From Sphingomicrobium sp. (GTDB lineage Bacteria > Pseudomonadota > Alphaproteobacteria > Sphingomonadales > Sphingomonadaceae): a stretch of DNA of 64,000 nt. The notes below the pieces were generated by a model. That model saw only the letters and a list, made by a program, of their open reading frames with translations, was not told the origin of the DNA and did not search any database. The position numbers and the translations under genes are program-made. This document shows positions 1-6,777 of the stretch, piece by piece. The DNA lies in assembly GCA_036563485.1 (NCBI GenBank), contig DATCMI010000001.1, positions 1,489,501-1,553,500 on the forward strand, read 5' to 3'. Within the stretch, counting starts at the first letter, position 1. Every line of letters starts with the position of its first letter.

Positions 1-1961
1 TTCTGGGCTCGCGAGAACGCGGTATAAAAGAGGCGACGGAAGTCGAAGTTCTTTATCCGGTCAAGCGGCTCGAACGGTGGCTTTGCAAGGTATGGCTCCA
101 TCGCGACATCGATGTCCGTCCATTGCTTGCGCGGAACCGCCTCGAGTGAACCGCAAACCACGACCGGGAATTCGAGGCCCTTGGACTGATGGATCGTGAG
201 GAACGAGACACATCCGCTCGGCGCGTATTCACTATCGTCCTCATACTCATCAATGCCGCCGTCGTAGAGGAACCGGAGGAATTGATTGAAGAGGTTGAGG
301 AGGTCGCGCTCGATGTAGTCGGGGTTCAAAACGGTGATGAAGTGGAGGTATTCAAACTTCGTCAGTAGCTGGGAGAGTAGCGCCAGGTTCCGAGAGGCGC
401 GACCCTTGTCCACGCCGTTCATGACTTCTTCGTCAAGAAAGCGGCTGAAGAGTGGGAATTGGAGTAACTGATAGAAGAGCCCGGTGAAGCCGTAGTCGGC
501 CGGTTCGGTCAACCCGATGTGGCGCTTGGCGGCGCGACGAACAAACGCCAAGAGACCCGCATTTTCAGGTTTCCGCAGCTCGTTGGCAAAAGCTTGGAAG
601 CACTGATGATCGTAATAGTCCCAGATCTGCAGCTCCATGCCTTCGCGAGTTTGGCGGATGTCCGGAAACTGGGGGAAGAGGAACACGAGCGCCCCGATCA
701 TAAGGCACACCTCCTCCCGCTCGAAAAAGAGATTTGAGCGCGGCGAATAGACAGGGATGCCACTCGCTTCGAGATGACGCGCAAGGCTGAGAACCCTCTC
801 GTTCTTTACGGACCGAAAGAGGAAGGCGACTTGGTTCCAGTCGGTGAGCCCATTGTCCCGAAGCGCATGGAGGAAGGCTACTACCTCGTCATGAAAGTCG
901 CGTTCGTCACCCTGACTGAGCTTCAGGACCGATCGCGTTTCGGGGAACTGCCCGTCCCGCGCCATGATCGTTTTGTCGAAACGGAAGGACTTACCTCGAT
1001 GCTTCCAGTCTTCCTCGGCGATCCATCGATTGTAGAAATCGATGATCTCTGGCGTGGAGCGATAGTTGATTGTTAGTCGCGCTTGCTTGCACCGGCCGGG
1101 GCCAAAGGGATTTGGGAACTCAAGGATGTTGCGGATCGTCGCGCCGCGAAAGCGATAGAGTCCCTGATCGTCGTCACCGACCACACAGATGTTTTCGTCA
1201 TCCGCTGCCAGCAGTAGGAGCAGCCGCTCCTGGATCGTGTTCGTGTCCTGATACTCATCCACCATCAGGTGCGTCAGGCGCTCTCGAACTTGCGCGAGAA
1301 CCTCAGGATTGTCCTCCAAAAGCCGTAAGGCTTCAGCCTGGATGCCCGAGAAATCGAGCGCGTTGTGCTCAAGCATTAGGTCCTGGTAGACTTCCGCCGC
1401 TTGAGCGAGGGCCACGATTGCCGGCTCTTTGGCGCTCCGTAGAGCAGACACATCGAGCGCTTCCTCAGCTACCTTATTCAGCCACTTCATCAGCTGGGTG
1501 GCCCGGTTCCACCGGCCGGATTGCTCGTTGCCGATGACGAATTCGATGTCTGGGATCCGGTCGAACTTGTTGAGCCGCTGATACAGAAAATACTGCTGGT
1601 CGAATTGATCGAAGAGCGAGAAGTTACGCTTGAGGCGGGTGAACTCCCGGTGGTCCTTCAACAACCGCAGACAGATTGAATGGAATGTGCCGATATACAT
1701 CTCATTGATGTTGAATGAGATGCTGAGCTCAAGAAGCCGGTTAGAGACGCGGGTGATTAGCTCGCGGGCAGCCTTTTCGGTGAAAGTTACGACGAGCAGC
1801 TGCTCCGGTTTCTTATTCTCGTGCTGGATGAGGCGAACGATCCGTTCAACGAGCGTGAAGGTCTTACCGGATCCCGGACCAGCAATGATTAGAACCGGCC
1901 CTTCGGTCGCTTCGATAGCCGATTGCTGATTTGGATTCGCCGCCGCCATGCGAGCAACCAT
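1..1961 (-). CDS. UvrD/Rep-family superfamily 1 DNA helicase, C-terminus cut by window edge
   Basis: The frame is open from 1961 down to base 1 with no stop, so about 653 residues are visible and the end is missing. The ATP-binding Walker A motif AGPGSGKT is at residues 27-34, and the helicase motif II stretch VDEYQDT is near residue 234. Further on come GDDDQ and a late SF1 motif resembling the usual 'LFYVAFTRA', here LFYTAFSRA, at the very left edge. SF1A helicases of this type unwind DNA 3' to 5' using ATP. An ATG at 1961 is chosen; an in-frame GTG at 1991 and an ATG at 1949 are alternatives, and none has a strong ribosome binding site. The gene lies within the island DNA, so a role in plasmid/ICE biology or defence is possible but not shown. 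Confidence 0.85.
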   Translation of the reverse strand, partial: MVARMAAANPNQQSAIEATEGPVLIIAGPGSGKTFTLVERIVRLIQHENKKPEQLLVVTFTEKAARELITRVSNRLLELSISFNINEMYIGTFHSICLRLLKDHREFTRLKRNFSLFDQFDQQYFLYQRLNKFDRIPDIEFVIGNEQSGRWNRATQLMKWLNKVAEEALDVSALRSAKEPAIVALAQAAEVYQDLMLEHNALDFSGIQAEALRLLEDNPEVLAQVRERLTHLMVDEYQDTNTIQERLLLLLAADDENICVVGDDDQGLYRFRGATIRNILEFPNPFGPGRCKQARLTINYRSTPEIIDFYNRWIAEEDWKHRGKSFRFDKTIMARDGQFPETRSVLKLSQGDERDFHDEVVAFLHALRDNGLTDWNQVAFLFRSVKNERVLSLARHLEASGIPVYSPRSNLFFEREEVCLMIGALVFLFPQFPDIRQTREGMELQIWDYYDHQCFQAFANELRKPENAGLLAFVRRAAKRHIGLTEPADYGFTGLFYQLLQFPLFSRFLDEEVMNGVDKGRASRNLALLSQLLTKFEYLHFITVLNPDYIERDLLNLFNQFLRFLYDGGIDEYEDDSEYAPSGCVSFLTIHQSKGLEFPVVVCGSLEAVPRKQWTDIDVAMEPYLAKPPFEPLDRIKNFDFRRLFYTAFSRAQ

Positions 1962-2194
1962 AGATAGCCACTCGCCACCGAGCCAACCCACATTGCAGCG
2001 TCGCGAGCGGGGAATTTCGGAACGGACGCAGAAGCTTGTGCAGATCTAGCTTACCAAAAGTAGCTGGTGCGAAACCGGTAAGCCTGAACGGGGCAAGCTT
2101 CCGGAGGTCCTAGAGCTGAATCAGTCACCGCACCCGGATGGCGCCAATCAGGCGGGACGGAATTCGCTTGTGCCATCCACTTCCTAGAACTCGA

Positions 2195-2824
2195 TCACTG
2201 CTGCTTGCCAAATCTAGTCTGCTCTGCGTCCGACGGAGATGAAAGGCAGTGCCCTCCATAGTCATATACCCACGCTTCGAGTGGGTTCGCCCCATGGTCG
2301 AGGAAAGAGACAGTCGCAAATCCGCCGTTGGACATCGGCGAAAGCAATGCTGGAGCTTGGACAAGCTCTTCAAGCGGCAAAGGGGAACGCAATCGAAAGA
2401 ATGTCTCGTCGGGGAGCCTTCGGCAACTGAGAACATGCCACTCGTCCTCTTGTCGCACGCGGTCAACGACGATCGGTGTCCAATCATCAGTTTTCCACGC
2501 GGGCGGGGGCCTTGTCCCTCGATCTGCCGGCTGGCGCTTAGCTACTCGACCAACCGAAAGCGGGGTGTTGTCAGTGCAAGGATGTTTCGGCCACGGAGGG
2601 CCAAGATCATCGAAGTATACGCGGCCGCCGTATGGGGATTGGTAAAAGAACACCGATGCTCCGCAAACAGGGCACGCCGTATTCGGAACCGTGAAACTCT
2701 TATAAGTCCACCGAACGGACCACGACCGGACCCGGGCTGGTGGTGCCGAGCGCGAGTTATGGTTCCCCCAGCCGCCGATGCACCAGCCGCATGTGCAATT
2801 GGAATAATGATTGTGGCCGGTCAC
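2195..2824 (-). CDS. Cysteine-rich zinc-ribbon protein, third gene of the HigBA operon
   Basis: This encodes 209 residues with an N-terminal CTCGWC motif and a CPVCG pair followed by a further C about 30 residues later, which looks like a metal-binding ribbon. The rest is hydrophilic with many aromatics, and I see no membrane segment. It starts with GTG and overlaps the antitoxin stop by four bases (GTGA), so it is translationally coupled to higA. I do not recognise a biochemical function; similar small zinc-ribbon proteins occur beside ImmA-type genes. The plus-strand frames across the same DNA lack a start signal and a coherent composition, so I prefer this strand. It could be a third antitoxin component, a regulator or a cargo protein. 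Confidence 0.7.
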   Translation of the reverse strand: MTGHNHYSNCTCGWCIGGWGNHNSRSAPPARVRSWSVRWTYKSFTVPNTACPVCGASVFFYQSPYGGRVYFDDLGPPWPKHPCTDNTPLSVGRVAKRQPADRGTRPPPAWKTDDWTPIVVDRVRQEDEWHVLSCRRLPDETFFRLRSPLPLEELVQAPALLSPMSNGGFATVSFLDHGANPLEAWVYDYGGHCLSSPSDAEQTRFGKQQ

Positions 2825-3993
2825 GAATGTGACAATTCGTGCGCGAATCTAGACCGAACCTGACCTCTGCCGAGTAGCTTGCTGAAACGGCGAAAATCGC
2901 GGTGTTCGCGCTGCCAGCGACCCGCGACCACGGACGGGTGGACTCCCGCTTCCTCAGCGACGTCCATGACTGCCGCTATCGAGGCGAACTCGTCCAATCC
3001 AGCCTTGTCCCAGGTTTCAGTTGGAATGAGCGCAACACTTGCAAGCCTGTCAGCTTCCTCTTCGAGATCAGACGCGCCGTGGACATCCAAGTCGTCGATG
3101 ATGATGTCATGACCGTTCAAATGTTTCTCGACATGCGCGAGCTCGTGCATGAGAGTGAACCAGAAGTTGTCGATGCGGTCATGTCTAAGAGTAAGGCCGA
3201 CGACGGGCACATTGTCATGGCGTTTCAGGGCAGCACCATCGAGATGCGTTCCTTGAAAGTGAGGCATCACCACGAAACAAATTCCTAGCTCCGCGAGAGC
3301 GGGCTGCACCTGATCGATACCGTCAGCGTGGGCGCTTAATTGTGCAATTGAACGCGCGACATTCAAGGTGATCTTTTTCCGCTTAGCAACCTTCTGCGCC
3401 TTCGATTTGAGCAAGACTGCCGCGCACCACGCTTGAAGTGCGGCTGCATCGAACTTCGCAGTGCGCTCAGTCCTTGTCTTCCGAAGCATCGCATGTGCCG
3501 GCGTTCCGCAGAAGGCTCGACCGAGGAACGCCCCAAAATCCTCGGACGGATTCATGAGTGAGCATCGCATCAAGGATCGGACGACGGCTGGGGTCGGCTG
3601 CAAGCGCTGTCCCTCGCTATGCTCTTCTTCTTGAATGAGCACGCTAGCGGGAATGCCCAAGTGAGTGTGTAGCGCCCGAACCATGTCCATGGACAATGAC
3701 CTAGCGCCTGACAGAACTTCCGACACACGGGACCGAGAGCCGAGCAAAGGCTCCAGATCACGAGGGGTCAGACCTTGTTGTTCCATTCGGAAGCGGATCG
3801 CAGCCACAGGCGTAGGTGCGGCTACCGGAAACGCCTTGCTCTCATACTGGCCGACCAAGGCGGCGAGCACCTCGAGTTCGTCGCCTTCCGGCGTCCCTTC
3901 CTTTGCATCAATCAGCTCCTCGATGCGCTCAACTGCAGCTTCGTAGTCGCCTTCGGTCCTGATCGGCCTGATCATCGTCTCGCTCTTCGTCAT
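2821..3993 (-). CDS. higA: HigA-type antitoxin: Xre helix-turn-helix fused to ImmA/IrrE (M78) metallopeptidase
   Basis: This is 390 residues. Residues 1-60 resemble the N-terminal part of HigA antitoxins. Residues 65-120 form an Xre-type helix-turn-helix. The C-terminal half is an ImmA/IrrE peptidase with HELAH at 283-287 as the zinc motif and an acidic EEEAD cluster at 311-315 likely giving the third ligand. The HTH would bind the operon operator and neutralise HigB. The peptidase part could cleave itself or a partner regulator, as ImmA does to ImmR; that is inference. The start overlaps the higB stop by four bases (ATGA). The domain fusion is larger than a classical HigA of roughly 100 residues. 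Confidence 0.88.
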   Translation of the reverse strand: MTKSETMIRPIRTEGDYEAAVERIEELIDAKEGTPEGDELEVLAALVGQYESKAFPVAAPTPVAAIRFRMEQQGLTPRDLEPLLGSRSRVSEVLSGARSLSMDMVRALHTHLGIPASVLIQEEEHSEGQRLQPTPAVVRSLMRCSLMNPSEDFGAFLGRAFCGTPAHAMLRKTRTERTAKFDAAALQAWCAAVLLKSKAQKVAKRKKITLNVARSIAQLSAHADGIDQVQPALAELGICFVVMPHFQGTHLDGAALKRHDNVPVVGLTLRHDRIDNFWFTLMHELAHVEKHLNGHDIIIDDLDVHGASDLEEEADRLASVALIPTETWDKAGLDEFASIAAVMDVAEEAGVHPSVVAGRWQREHRDFRRFSKLLGRGQVRSRFAHELSHS

Positions 3994-4307
3994 CTCGATG
4001 CTCCCCCTCCGACAGTTGCAGCGTCGATCTCATCATACTCGGCATGAGTGCCGATGAACTTCACGAGAACGACACCGATCTCGTAGTTCACATGAACAAT
4101 GAGCCGGTATTTGTTGCCGCAGATATTGAAGATCACGCGACGGTCCGCGACGAAGCTCGCGCTCCGATAGCGCGACTTGATGTCGTTCGGGGACTTCCAT
4201 TTCGCCGCACAAGCTTCCGCGAACCACGCCTTCAGCGGCTGTTCGGCATCGCCGCAGCCGGGCCGTTCCCAGAATTCCTGAAGCTTCCGCCTCGTGATCA
4301 CATGCAC
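3990..4307 (-). CDS. higB: HigB-family toxin of a type II toxin-antitoxin system
   Basis: This is 105 residues matching the HigB toxin family along its length: an N-terminal basic helix, a 'YRSASFV' segment, then the conserved FNICGNKYRLIV core and a C-terminal FIGTHAEYD. HigB proteins are ribosome-dependent mRNA endonucleases of the RelE fold. The toxin gene comes first, as is usual for higBA, and it overlaps higA by four bases. An AGGGAG ribosome binding site lies three bases before the ATG. The promoter must lie in the shared 4308-4430 region, which also serves the divergent ubiquitin-like operon. Confidence 0.9.
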   Translation of the reverse strand: MHVITRRKLQEFWERPGCGDAEQPLKAWFAEACAAKWKSPNDIKSRYRSASFVADRRVIFNICGNKYRLIVHVNYEIGVVLVKFIGTHAEYDEIDAATVGGGASR

Positions 4308-4341
4308 TCCCTACACATACAAAGTGGCGCCGTCAAAAGAA

Positions 4342-4360
4342 TGTTCCCGAAATGGGAACA
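4342..4360. promoter_or_regulatory. Perfect inverted repeat in the divergent promoter region, probable HigA operator
   Basis: TGTTCCC and GGGAACA form a perfect 7-bp inverted repeat with a 5-base spacer. It sits 35 bp upstream of higB and about 70 bp upstream of the ubiquitin-like modifier gene. Its size and symmetry suit a dimeric Xre-type repressor, so autoregulation by HigA is the likeliest use. It may also affect the divergent operon. This is inferred from position and symmetry only. Confidence 0.6.
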
Positions 4361-4430
4361 ATCATATTGCCGAAGCGGTTTTGATCAGGCATCTGGTTGT
4401 GCAGGCGAATCGAATCGGAAGGACTTGGCG

Positions 4431-4685
4431 ATGGCCGACAAGGAAAAGGGCGAGGGCAAGGAACTCCACATCTTCGTGAACAGGAGGAAGTTCGGCACGG
4501 AGGATGGCGTGACAGCCTCAATGACGGGCGCGGCTATTGCTGCCCTTGTCGAGGTGGCGGCTGACAATGCCGTCATCAGGGAAGGAAATAACGAGAACGG
4601 AACGGAGATCGCCCCTGGAGATCCGGTCACGGTGAAAAACGGGGCCCACTTTTTGGTCACGCGCAGGATCGTCGACGGAGGCTGA
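4431..4685 (+). CDS. Ubiquitin-like modifier of the multiubiquitin family with C-terminal Gly-Gly
   Basis: This is an 84-residue protein with one beta-grasp-like domain: strand 'LHIFVNRRKF' (12-21), helix 'MTGAAIAALVEVA' (31-43), then an acidic loop, PVTVKNGAHFLVT and the last residues GG at 83-84. The pattern matches the bacterial multiubiquitin domain, which often occurs as tandem repeats; here it is single. The exposed terminal GG would be adenylated by the E1 encoded two genes downstream and joined to a target or lipid amine. GGAAGGA lies about seven bases upstream of the ATG and decides the start. The open frame reaches back to 4044, but that part is antisense to higB and has no start signal. 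The next gene begins three bases after the stop. Confidence 0.85.
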   Translation: MADKEKGEGKELHIFVNRRKFGTEDGVTASMTGAAIAALVEVAADNAVIREGNNENGTEIAPGDPVTVKNGAHFLVTRRIVDGG

Positions 4686-4688
4686 TTA

Positions 4689-5102
4689 ATGTCCGACGAC
4701 GCTGAGAAGCGCGTAAGAGCGGAGCTCAAACGCCTGGCGGACGGCGGCCAGGCTGCTGAGCTGATTGGGGACGCAAGTCCGAGGCGCGCAGTTCTTTATC
4801 GTGGCGTCCCGTGCACGCTAGGTGCCGGCAATCCGTCAGCCCTGGATGTGCTAGTGCCCGTTCCCGAAGGGTATCCAGGGAGCGCCATTGATGGCGCTGC
4901 ATTGGCAGAAGGCGAGCAGCTCTTCGCTCGCCTCGCCGGTGGCAGCAACCCGCAGGGTGTGTTTACGGCTGATGGGCAGCGGTGGGTTGTGGCAAGTTAC
5001 CATCCCCACGCAGGTGGCGGCGGTCCGCCATGGGACCCGACCCGCCACGGCTACCACACATATATCGACCACCTGGTTGCCTGGCTGTCAGTTCTCAAAT
5101 GA
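4689..5102 (+). CDS. Prokaryotic E2/UBC-like protein lacking a cysteine at the canonical site
   Basis: This is 137 residues. The core 'LDVLVPVPEGYPG' (52-64) is the beta-meander and 'YP' region typical of E2-fold proteins, followed by W99, HPH at 105-107, PW at 114-115 and a C-terminal amphipathic helix 'YIDHLVAWL'. The only cysteine, C42, lies before the YP segment, whereas the thioester cysteine of standard E2s follows it. Several histidines (105, 107, 120, 123, 128) occupy the late region. It is placed between modifier and E1, so it is expected to act in the same conjugation pathway as an atypical E2 or as a UEV-like non-catalytic adaptor. It overlaps the E1 gene by four bases (ATGA). Confidence 0.75.
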   Translation: MSDDAEKRVRAELKRLADGGQAAELIGDASPRRAVLYRGVPCTLGAGNPSALDVLVPVPEGYPGSAIDGAALAEGEQLFARLAGGSNPQGVFTADGQRWVVASYHPHAGGGGPPWDPTRHGYHTYIDHLVAWLSVLK

Positions 5103-6595
5103 TCAGGTGTTCACGACGCGCAATCCTTCGGCTGGCAGACCCAGCCGTGGCGGAACTGCTGCCCTTAGTCTTTCGTCGCTACCCGCGTGATGAGTGGGGG
5201 TCGTTCGCTCGTTTCGGATGGCGCCCCATCGGCGACGAGCTCCTGGTCACTCTGGCGGCCATTGATCCGCCTGGCGCGGGCGACATGGACGAGCGGGTTC
5301 CGAATGTTCGGTTCAACGAGAGCTATTCATTACGAATGGCTCTAGCTGCCGAACAGCATGACCTCGCGGTGGGAGTGGTTCATTCGCACCCACGCCGAGG
5401 CATTCCCCGCCCAAGCGACATCGATGATGATATGGACGGCTATTATGCGAGCTACTTTGAAGCCTTCACGGGTGGGCGCCCCTATATCAGTCTAATTGCC
5501 TCAGAGGTCGGGGGCAAAATCGCCGTGTCTGGCCGCATTCAATGGCAGGGCCATTGGTATGAAGTGGACCGGGTTTTCGCCCTCGACGCTCGTGTGCAAT
5601 GTTGGCCCGGCGGTCGGCGGCCGCTGCCGGAAATCAAATCAACGGGGAGGGCTGCGCGATTTGTGAGCGCTTATGGTGCCGAAGCATACGAGCGCATGAG
5701 AGCGGCCACTGTTGGGGTTGTTGGGGCCGGGGGCACCGGCTCGGCGGCTATCCCTGTGCTCGCGCGCGCCGGGGTGGGTCGAATTATCGCGATTGATCCT
5801 GATGTTATCACTGAGTCCAACCTCGAACGGGTGCATGGTGCTTACCCTGGCCATGTGCAGGAGCGCACCGCGAAAGTGCAGGTTGCTTCGGAATTGGTAG
5901 GTAAGATCGATCCGAGCATCGAGTTTATCGGCATCAAGGGTCGGGTGCCTCAAAGTGAGGTCGTCGATGCTCTGGCTCAAGCAGATGTGCTGCTCGGCTG
6001 CACCGACCAACATTCGAGCAGGCTCGCACTTAGCGAACTGGCTTACCGTTATCTGATTCCAGCGATCGATACTGGCGTCGTGCTTGAAGGCGAGGGCGGC
6101 CGAGTGACAGCACAGGTCGGGCAGCTTGTGCGGTTTCTGCCAAGCGACCGCTGCGCCATCTGCAGGGGTGTTGTTCGGCCCGAGCTAATTGGGTTTGAAC
6201 TGATGAGCGACGAGGAAAAGGCCCGCTGCAAGGCGGCGGCCGCGGAAGCGGAGGCGAGAGGCGAAGATCCCAATCCTTATTGGAAGTCTGTTCCCCAGAT
6301 AAACACCGTCGGATCAGTGACAACGACCATCGGTGCGCTTGCAGCGAACTACGCGATTGGTTGGATAACAGGCCGCTTCAAGCCGCCGTTCAGGCGGCTG
6401 CAAATGAACCTTGTCGACCCATATCTTGGAACGGCCGAGTGCGATAGCGCGCGGGCAGGGGACTGCACCTGTCAGCGCGTGAGAGGATGGTCCGACCAGG
6501 GTGCAGTTGAAGCTATGATCTCGGCCCCCACTCACTGGGACCCGCCGGTGCGGGTGCGCAGTTCGATGCCTCACCAGGGTTCGTCCCGCGCGTGA
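5099..6595 (+). CDS. JAB/JAMM isopeptidase fused to E1-like ThiF activating enzyme
   Basis: This is 498 residues. The N-terminal JAB domain has the zinc motif H95-S-H97, then S106 and D109 in 'HSHPRRGIPRPSDID', with E74 a candidate catalytic acid. From about residue 185 comes an E1/ThiF domain: 'GVVGAGGTGS' (206-215) binds nucleotide, D233/D235 follow the second strand, and 'ESNLERV' carries the arginine finger. CAIC (352-355) and CTC (456-458) look like the structural zinc site; C377 is the best candidate for the thioester cysteine by comparison with MoeB. One polypeptide could therefore activate the modifier and remove it from targets. The ATG at 5099 overlaps the E2 stop; an upstream ATG at 4982 lies inside the E2 gene and is rejected. 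Confidence 0.88.
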   Translation: MIRCSRRAILRLADPAVAELLPLVFRRYPRDEWGSFARFGWRPIGDELLVTLAAIDPPGAGDMDERVPNVRFNESYSLRMALAAEQHDLAVGVVHSHPRRGIPRPSDIDDDMDGYYASYFEAFTGGRPYISLIASEVGGKIAVSGRIQWQGHWYEVDRVFALDARVQCWPGGRRPLPEIKSTGRAARFVSAYGAEAYERMRAATVGVVGAGGTGSAAIPVLARAGVGRIIAIDPDVITESNLERVHGAYPGHVQERTAKVQVASELVGKIDPSIEFIGIKGRVPQSEVVDALAQADVLLGCTDQHSSRLALSELAYRYLIPAIDTGVVLEGEGGRVTAQVGQLVRFLPSDRCAICRGVVRPELIGFELMSDEEKARCKAAAAEAEARGEDPNPYWKSVPQINTVGSVTTTIGALAANYAIGWITGRFKPPFRRLQMNLVDPYLGTAECDSARAGDCTCQRVRGWSDQGAVEAMISAPTHWDPPVRVRSSMPHQGSSRA

Positions 6596-6728: not shown

Positions 6729-6777
6729 TGCAATCGCACTGCAGAGGTCAGGGGTTCGATTCCCCTCAGCTCCACCA
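6729..6777 (+). other. attR-like 3' fragment of a tRNA-Ala(CGC) gene marking the island boundary
   Basis: The segment reads as the 3' part of a tRNA: anticodon stem-loop with T33 and anticodon CGC at 6735-6737, a five-base variable loop, T stem AGGGG/CCCCT (6750-6754, 6762-6766) with loop TTCGATT, acceptor strand CAGCTCC with U70 as expected for alanine, discriminator A and encoded CCA (6775-6777). The acceptor 5' strand and D arm are absent, so it is not a working tRNA. Bases 6728 and 6744 do not pair, which marks about where identity to the real gene ends. Such 3' copies are left when an element integrates into a tRNA gene; orientation puts the intact gene and the rest of the island to the left. 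Confidence 0.8.

Follow-up and report, generated by a model that had tools for sequence, protein, structure and literature searches.

In the 64,000-nucleotide stretch of Sphingomicrobium sp. DNA that we analysed (the window), three tightly packed plus-strand genes at positions 4431-6595, with a 3-base gap between the first and the second and a 4-base overlap between the second and the third, form an operon which is probably a self-contained ubiquitin-like conjugation system: a divergent sister of Bub (type 6e of Iyer et al.) that would belong to the defence cargo of an integrative tRNA-Ala island and work by a cysteine-free relay. The operon is real at these coordinates, and the gene set, the motifs, their conservation, the clade to which the operon belongs and the island are seen directly in the sequences. 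An earlier note, made from the letters of the window alone, had described the same packed genes as encoding a Gly-Gly-ending beta-grasp modifier, an E2-like protein and a JAMM isopeptidase-E1 fusion; the open reading frames are present where it had placed them (Table 1), and Pfam profiles support the three assignments.

Table 1. Features in and around the operon (positions in the window)
Position	Strand	Feature	Basis
1..1991	-	UvrD-like helicase with C-terminal PD-(D/E)XK domain; extends beyond the window's left end; start taken from the longest ORF
2195..2824	-	Protein of 209 aa with cysteines, where PD-Lambda-2_C would be expected; overlaps the 2821..3993 gene by 4 bases
2821..3993	-	Xre HTH fused to ImmA/IrrE peptidase, PD-Lambda-2_B	PADLOC E 1e-115
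3990..4307	-	HigB-like toxin, PD-Lambda-2_A	PF09907 E 1e-31; PADLOC E 9e-38
4339..4363	.	Inverted repeat GAATGTTCCC-5-GGGAACAATC between the two divergent genes; putative operator
4431..4685	+	Ubiquitin-like modifier (BubA-like), 84 aa, single beta-grasp domain, ends ...VDGG	PF14452 E 4e-5
4689..5102	+	E2-like protein (BubB-like), 137 aa, no conserved cysteine; S103-Y-H105-P-H signature	PF14462 and alignments
5099..6595	+	JAB(JAMM)-E1 fusion (BubCD-like), 498 aa from ATG 5099	Pfam, PDB match, motifs
6729..6777	+	49-base direct repeat of the tRNA-Ala(CGC) 3' end; right attachment site of the island	Repeat match

Identity of the genes and place among known systems

The profile search suggested in the earlier note gave four Pfam matches, three of them below the curated cut-offs. 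The JAB-E1 protein matched ThiF over the cut-off (E 6e-35, residues 189-440); the modifier matched Multi_ubiq at 24.1 bits (cut-off 24.5, marginal by Pfam), the E2-like protein Prok-E2_E at E 1e-4 and 22.1 bits (cut-off 25), and the JAB half Prok-JAB at E 6e-4 and 20.2 bits (cut-off 25; residues 75-115) with its JAMM residues intact. We do not regard the sub-cut-off matches as chance, because the gene order recurs in the closest relative, locus L053 of the Planctomycetota (identity 56% for the modifier, 47.5% for the E2 and 53% for the E1), and because the JAB-E1 protein matches Citrobacter BubCD. NCBIfam and PADLOC (2023 copy) are without matches for the window's modifier and E2, and current defence annotation therefore probably overlooks loci of this type; the JAB-E1 protein has general ThiF/E1 matches there, under the NCBIfam cut-offs. 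A second Prok-JAB match, over the Pfam cut-off, lies elsewhere in the source genome (1862671-1862946, minus strand, in a 300-aa frame).

Among solved structures the JAB-E1 protein matches BubCD (PDB 9ea4, 9ea5) best (E 6e-16), which agrees with the relation to the Bub group proposed in the earlier note, and a five-row profile of the clade's E1s matches BubCD at E 3e-25. One BubCD sequence in the PDB is a D104A mutant, and by alignment position D104 would be the JAMM aspartate. Since the JAB-E1 protein matches solved BubCD, the fusion of eraser and activator is not new. The idea that it marks a new type was dropped, as the fusion is in Iyer et al. 2006 and Citrobacter BubCD is one chain in the PDB. 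What had been suggested as a distinct minimal type is therefore, in its single modifier and JAB-E1 fusion, already known, and it holds in another respect, as a distinct branch.

In their section on these operons Iyer et al. 2006 (PMC1779556) count this set of genes as the fifth of their operon types (type 6e), with the JAB on the E1 N-terminus, one to three modifier repeats, and a cysteine-less E2, standalone or modifier-fused, which they call catalytically inactive; the branch of the window is not set apart in that section. The window shares with type 6e the JAB-E1 fusion, a modifier of one repeat and the cysteine-less E2/RWD-like domain, and differs in that the extra zinc-finger gene of that type (Cx3Cx35-38Hx2C) is unseen in its operon.

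Type II CBASS, with Cap2-Cap3, has ubiquitin-like E1 chemistry and a JAB eraser, as the window does; in the window, in contrast, E2 and E1 are separate (there is no Cap2-type fusion) and a modifier is encoded, and no nucleotidyltransferase (CD-NTase) was found among the 11 island proteins scanned. In Bil (BilABCD), too, modifier, E2, JAB and E1 stand within one operon. A review passage places the catalytic cysteine of the Bil E2 in a CEHH motif and describes the JAB as a separate protein, whereas the window's E2 lacks CEHH (its only cysteine is C42) and the JAB is fused to the E1.

With Bub the window has in common the JAB-E1 fusion, an E2 with Ser-x-His and without conserved cysteine, a modifier of the Multi_ubiq type, and nearby regulators of the CapH/CapP or CapW kind, which stand near 219 of 544 Bub operons according to the part of PMC13373217 that deals with them. 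The E2 of the Bub-type locus L024 matches Citrobacter BubB (PDB 9eae_C, 9eav_D; E 1e-14), and the clade E2 profile matches Bub-type E2 profiles at 98.4% (E 7.6e-15); against the PDB this profile found nothing significant, the two matches at E 0.36-0.4 being taken as chance. The differences are that the E1s of the window's clade stand apart, that the clade E2s have a signature of their own, SYHPHxxGxxP, and that no DUF6527 gene was found in the surveyed flanks. For these three reasons we regard the operon, on the sequences compared, as a distinct, deep, rare and divergent branch of a known, Bub-like kind; it is the branch itself that is new.

The phylogenetic evidence comes from an unrooted tree of 31 E1s, made after four short E1s (L017, L018, L021, L045), none with a JAMM match, had been removed. 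The window, a plasmid of Terrarubrum flagellatum (L023) and six Planctomycetota loci (L028, L029, L030, L051, L052, L053), here called the clade, lie on one side of a branch with support 100/100 and a length of 1.83 changes per site, and 23 E1s, here called Bub-type, lie on the other, so that the split is 8 versus 23 rows and the clade is not nested among the rows sampled. The window's E1 groups with those of L053 and L023 (support 86/82, not firm).

The DUF6527 evidence is a survey with a profile built from three Bub-type loci, which a very divergent copy could thus escape. It matched 20 of 27 Bub-type loci, 24 of which had only about 1.5 kb of flank, or 17 of 24 without the three profile-building loci, and none of the eight clade loci (13.6 to 18.5 kb each, island counted); there was no match to DUF6527 in the PDB. 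We take DUF6527 to be the BubE protease, a part of Bub. A review passage says that Bub comes with a specific protease.

Since few genomes match the E1 and E2 profiles, the branch is rare and patchy in the samples searched. At E 1e-40 the five-row E1 profile has the source genome as its sole match among 398 genomes of the phylum; in the Planctomycetota 12 of 392 genomes match at E 1e-30, four at 5e-189 or better (one of them source genome G1026) and eight at 8e-42 to 1e-31. Within the window's class the Pfam E2 model matches 4 of 385 genomes, source genome counted. With the E2 profile the source genome stands at 7e-64 among 296 genomes of its order, where three others reach merely 5e-6 to 3e-4, and no match occurs among the 20 same-genus genomes listed. 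A scan of genome contigs with patterns from two sequences only gave three planctomycete loci among 36 stretches. In IMG/VR viral sequences no relative was found by E2 or E1 profile with the narrow patterns used, and we have accordingly set aside carriage by viruses as unsupported.

Among plasmids, tblastn gave 59 records, 58 of them at 26.6-40.1% identity and one close relative, the alphaproteobacterial plasmid of Terrarubrum (49.7% over 96%). Besides this locus we inspected four of the other 58. Those of Synechocystis pSYSX, Mesorhizobium and Methylomagnum have annotated multiubiquitin, ThiF and DUF6527 genes; Synechocystis pSYSX and Mesorhizobium also have an E2/UBC gene, and in Methylomagnum the E2 is joined to the modifier. 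The Roseomonas match is a ThiF gene alone, amid insertion sequences. The window's E2 found no match in plasmids, and that of L030 a weak one, in Mesorhizobium (E 6e-3).

Conserved residues and the proposed chemistry

The Gly-Gly and the E1 motifs, on whose presence in homologues the earlier note had made its reading depend, are both found throughout the clade. Gly-Gly is kept in 8/8 modifiers, and the adenylation residues G209, G212, T213, G214, D233, N241, R244 and K259 are invariant in 8/8 E1s. Only in the window is the Gly-Gly C-terminal; in the seven relatives it is followed by a tail of 6 residues (L053) or 10 residues (Terrarubrum) on a single modifier, or by a fused E2 (L028, L029, L030, L051, L052), in which case apparently three modifier repeats, counted by eye, precede the E2. 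Multi_ubiq scores in the relatives were 33.2 bits for L030, 28.8 for L052 and 21.3 for L053, with no match for L023. Tailed or E2-fused modifiers would need a cut after Gly-Gly, which is the job expected of the JAMM half. Here E32 (by our reading of the motif the JAMM glutamate), H95, H97, S106 and D109 are invariant in all eight clade E1s, H95 and H97 being the JAMM histidines that the earlier note had singled out; a simple JAMM pattern occurs in 8/8 clade and 22/27 Bub-type sequences.

The catalytic cysteine that the same note had proposed for the E1, C377, did not hold up: the seven clade relatives have K or R there, so that the cysteine is unique to the window's protein among the eight. 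The only cysteines invariant in the clade E1s are C301, C352, C355, C456 and C458, the last four of which (CxxC...CxC) look like a zinc site. Within the crossover segment the eight have no cysteine column in common, and T403, T408 and T409 are invariant in all of them; T403 is mostly Ala or Ser in 27 Bub-type E1s.

In 28 aligned E2s (7 clade, 21 Bub-type), every one of them chosen by an E2 profile, Ser-x-His is present in each row, and cysteines number at most three in any column. C42, the sole cysteine of the window's E2, was considered as catalytic residue and rejected, as it is unique in its column (1/28). Left out of the 28 rows were L047 (own copy), L050 (same gene as L015), L017 and L045; L014, L018 and L021 gave no E2 match, and the plasmid E2s L024-L026 were outside the set. 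In a separate alignment of 17 Bub-type E2s the serine column was not listed as invariant, which we take as an alignment shift because the Ser-x-His triplet was found in each row. SYHPHxxGxxP is present in 7/7 clade E2s, where the Bub-type E2s have S[RW]H, and SYHPH in 0/21 of the others; the four clade E2s scanned all lie below the Pfam cut-off.

Ser-x-His and SYHPHxxGxxP look like an active site. Because no E2 cysteine is conserved while Ser-x-His occurs in all rows, a serine/threonine ester relay seems the likeliest chemistry. Bub reportedly works via ester intermediates and is said to have a serine-protease partner (work attributed to Ye et al., NSMB 2026), and the residue pattern of the clade's E1 and E2 is consistent with such intermediates. 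From these patterns we infer what follows on chemistry, targets and regulation, and below on the defence role. The E1 half would adenylate the C-terminal glycine of the modifier, using ATP, and the modifier would move onto a hydroxyl residue of the E1, possibly T403 or T408/T409 in the crossover segment. It would then pass to S103 of the E2-like protein, with H105 assisting, and from there be joined to target proteins. The JAMM half would cut after Gly-Gly, both to mature the precursors found in relatives and to strip the tag from targets.

The E2 may also do no more than bind the modifier, since cysteine-less E2s are read as inactive in the literature; it would then be an RWD-like scaffold, and the E1 alone would conjugate the modifier to targets. 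The group was called inactive for its missing cysteine in the section of Iyer et al. 2006 (PMC1779556) cited above, a 2024 review states the same in its passage on cysteine-less E2s, and Terrarubrum has a modifier and a JAB-E1 with no E2 match within its 17-kb locus. We nevertheless find an inactive scaffold unlikely in view of the conserved motifs resembling an active site and of the E2 being present in 7/8 clade operons, in five of them fused to the modifier.

The Terrarubrum locus also bears on another reading. Its tailed modifier and JAB-E1 (L023:7690-9458) lie among metabolic genes, with a SufE-family gene adjoining and hesA- and moaD-like genes 4-5 kb off. These neighbours, together with the membership of the E1 in the ThiF family, would suit a pathway like those of ThiS/MoaD-type proteins, with the modifier acting as a sulphur carrier (as a thiocarboxylate) from which a small molecule receives its sulphur. 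We consider such a role highly improbable for the window, where an E2 is present, none of the 11 island proteins scanned (small ORFs excluded) looks metabolic and Pfam finds no rhodanese domain in the JAB-E1, and the JAMM set is kept in 8/8 clade E1s. Reversible protein tagging by a cysteine-free relay is, judging from these residues, the most likely activity of the operon, and it would probably serve immunity.

The island and the neighbours of the relatives

The earlier note had placed the operon at an island edge, and the boundary can now be given. A complete tRNA-Ala(CGC) lies at genome positions 1479914-1479989, and its last 49 bases recur as the attachment-site repeat of Table 1. The island so delimited is 16.3 kb long, with an integrase beside the tRNA and the conjugation operon at the far end. 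Its cargo includes an Xre regulator, small unassigned ORFs, type III-like Res and Mod, UvrD-PD(D/E)XK, a 209-aa protein and PD-Lambda-2 A/B. The Res (with a TnsA-like domain match), the Mod and the UvrD-PD(D/E)XK fusion stand in a row at genome 1484162-1491491, as a type III-like restriction set. The tRNA-to-pnp interval is 17.5 kb here versus 10.8 and 7.8 kb in two same-genus genomes, and the island DNA had no blastn match in four same-genus regions (two not reaching pnp); the site is therefore variable, and there was no clean empty site among the same-genus regions compared. Two other same-genus genomes (G1605:C38:214-261 and G1609:C168:3663-3710) also carry a second, 100% identical copy of the 3' tRNA-Ala stretch, so the site is probably a hotspot.

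Directly beside the operon, PD-Lambda-2 is represented by matched A and B genes and a third gene in the expected place, the 209-aa protein, which has no Pfam or PADLOC match. In its description in PMC9519451 the system consists of HigB, an Xre-peptidase fusion and a third, P4-antitoxin-related gene. The inverted repeat in the divergent intergenic region has one site in the window; with two mismatches allowed, at least one match appeared in 15 of 100 shuffles. The divergently encoded Xre-ImmA regulator, in which HTH and ImmA domains are fused, would probably keep expression of the operon down. Divergent HTH and/or ImmA genes are found at 7/8 clade operons (the window, L028, L029, L030, L051, L052 and L053), with capP matches at L028, L029, L051 and L053 and capH matches at L051 and L052; the L030 regulator was assigned by its similarity to that of L029, and this and the HTH of L053 were judged by eye. 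CapH/CapP regulate immune operons upon DNA damage, according to a passage of PMC13373217.

The survey of homologue neighbourhoods that the earlier note had proposed showed known defence genes beside 4/7 relatives, in flanks which were partly scanned (at L028 and L051 only the genes adjoining the operon start). L029 has a class II pAgo (PADLOC E 2e-298) and a Cas4-like nuclease near the operon (L029:10043-13332). In L052 (10070-13682) and L030 (9595-13036) an IetA/IetS-like pair, AAA ATPase and subtilase, lies directly downstream of the JAB-E1 gene, which in L052 the first Iet gene overlaps by 11 bases (longest ORF). DISARM DrmA and DrmB and SoFic, with an integrase, are near the operon in L053 (74-3258 and 13992-15125).

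A defence role thus appears likely from the gene neighbourhoods; for Bub operons, phage protection is given as not yet shown in the relevant passage of PMC13373217. The tight linkage to a HigB/HigA-like pair and the integrase on the island would also fit an addiction or stress-response module that stabilises the island by keeping conjugation and removal in balance, and is not anti-phage defence; Iyer et al. 2006 (PMC1779556), in the section concerned, liken the mobility of such operons to that of restriction-modification and toxin-antitoxin systems. We think this somewhat unlikely, given the pAgo, IetAS (twice) and DISARM genes that adjoin relatives.

What the branch offers

The set is compact, three genes in about 2.2 kb, and with it one could reconstitute the whole course of a ubiquitin-like tag, from its maturation and activation through transfer to removal; the free, tailed and E2-fused modifiers make a natural comparison within the clade. 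The clade makes it testable whether cysteine-less E2s are enzymes or scaffolds, and whether a JAMM alone is enough as eraser without BubE.

A bolder view, which we hold to be quite doubtful, is that the clade constitutes a separate, cysteine-free and BubE-free class of immunity, in which one polypeptide would mature, activate and erase the tag and would also free the E2-fused modifiers of relatives, and the tag of two planctomycetes would feed the adjoining IetAS. If this were true, the planctomycete tag and the AAA-ATPase/subtilase pair would be a bacterial counterpart of ubiquitin-directed proteolysis.
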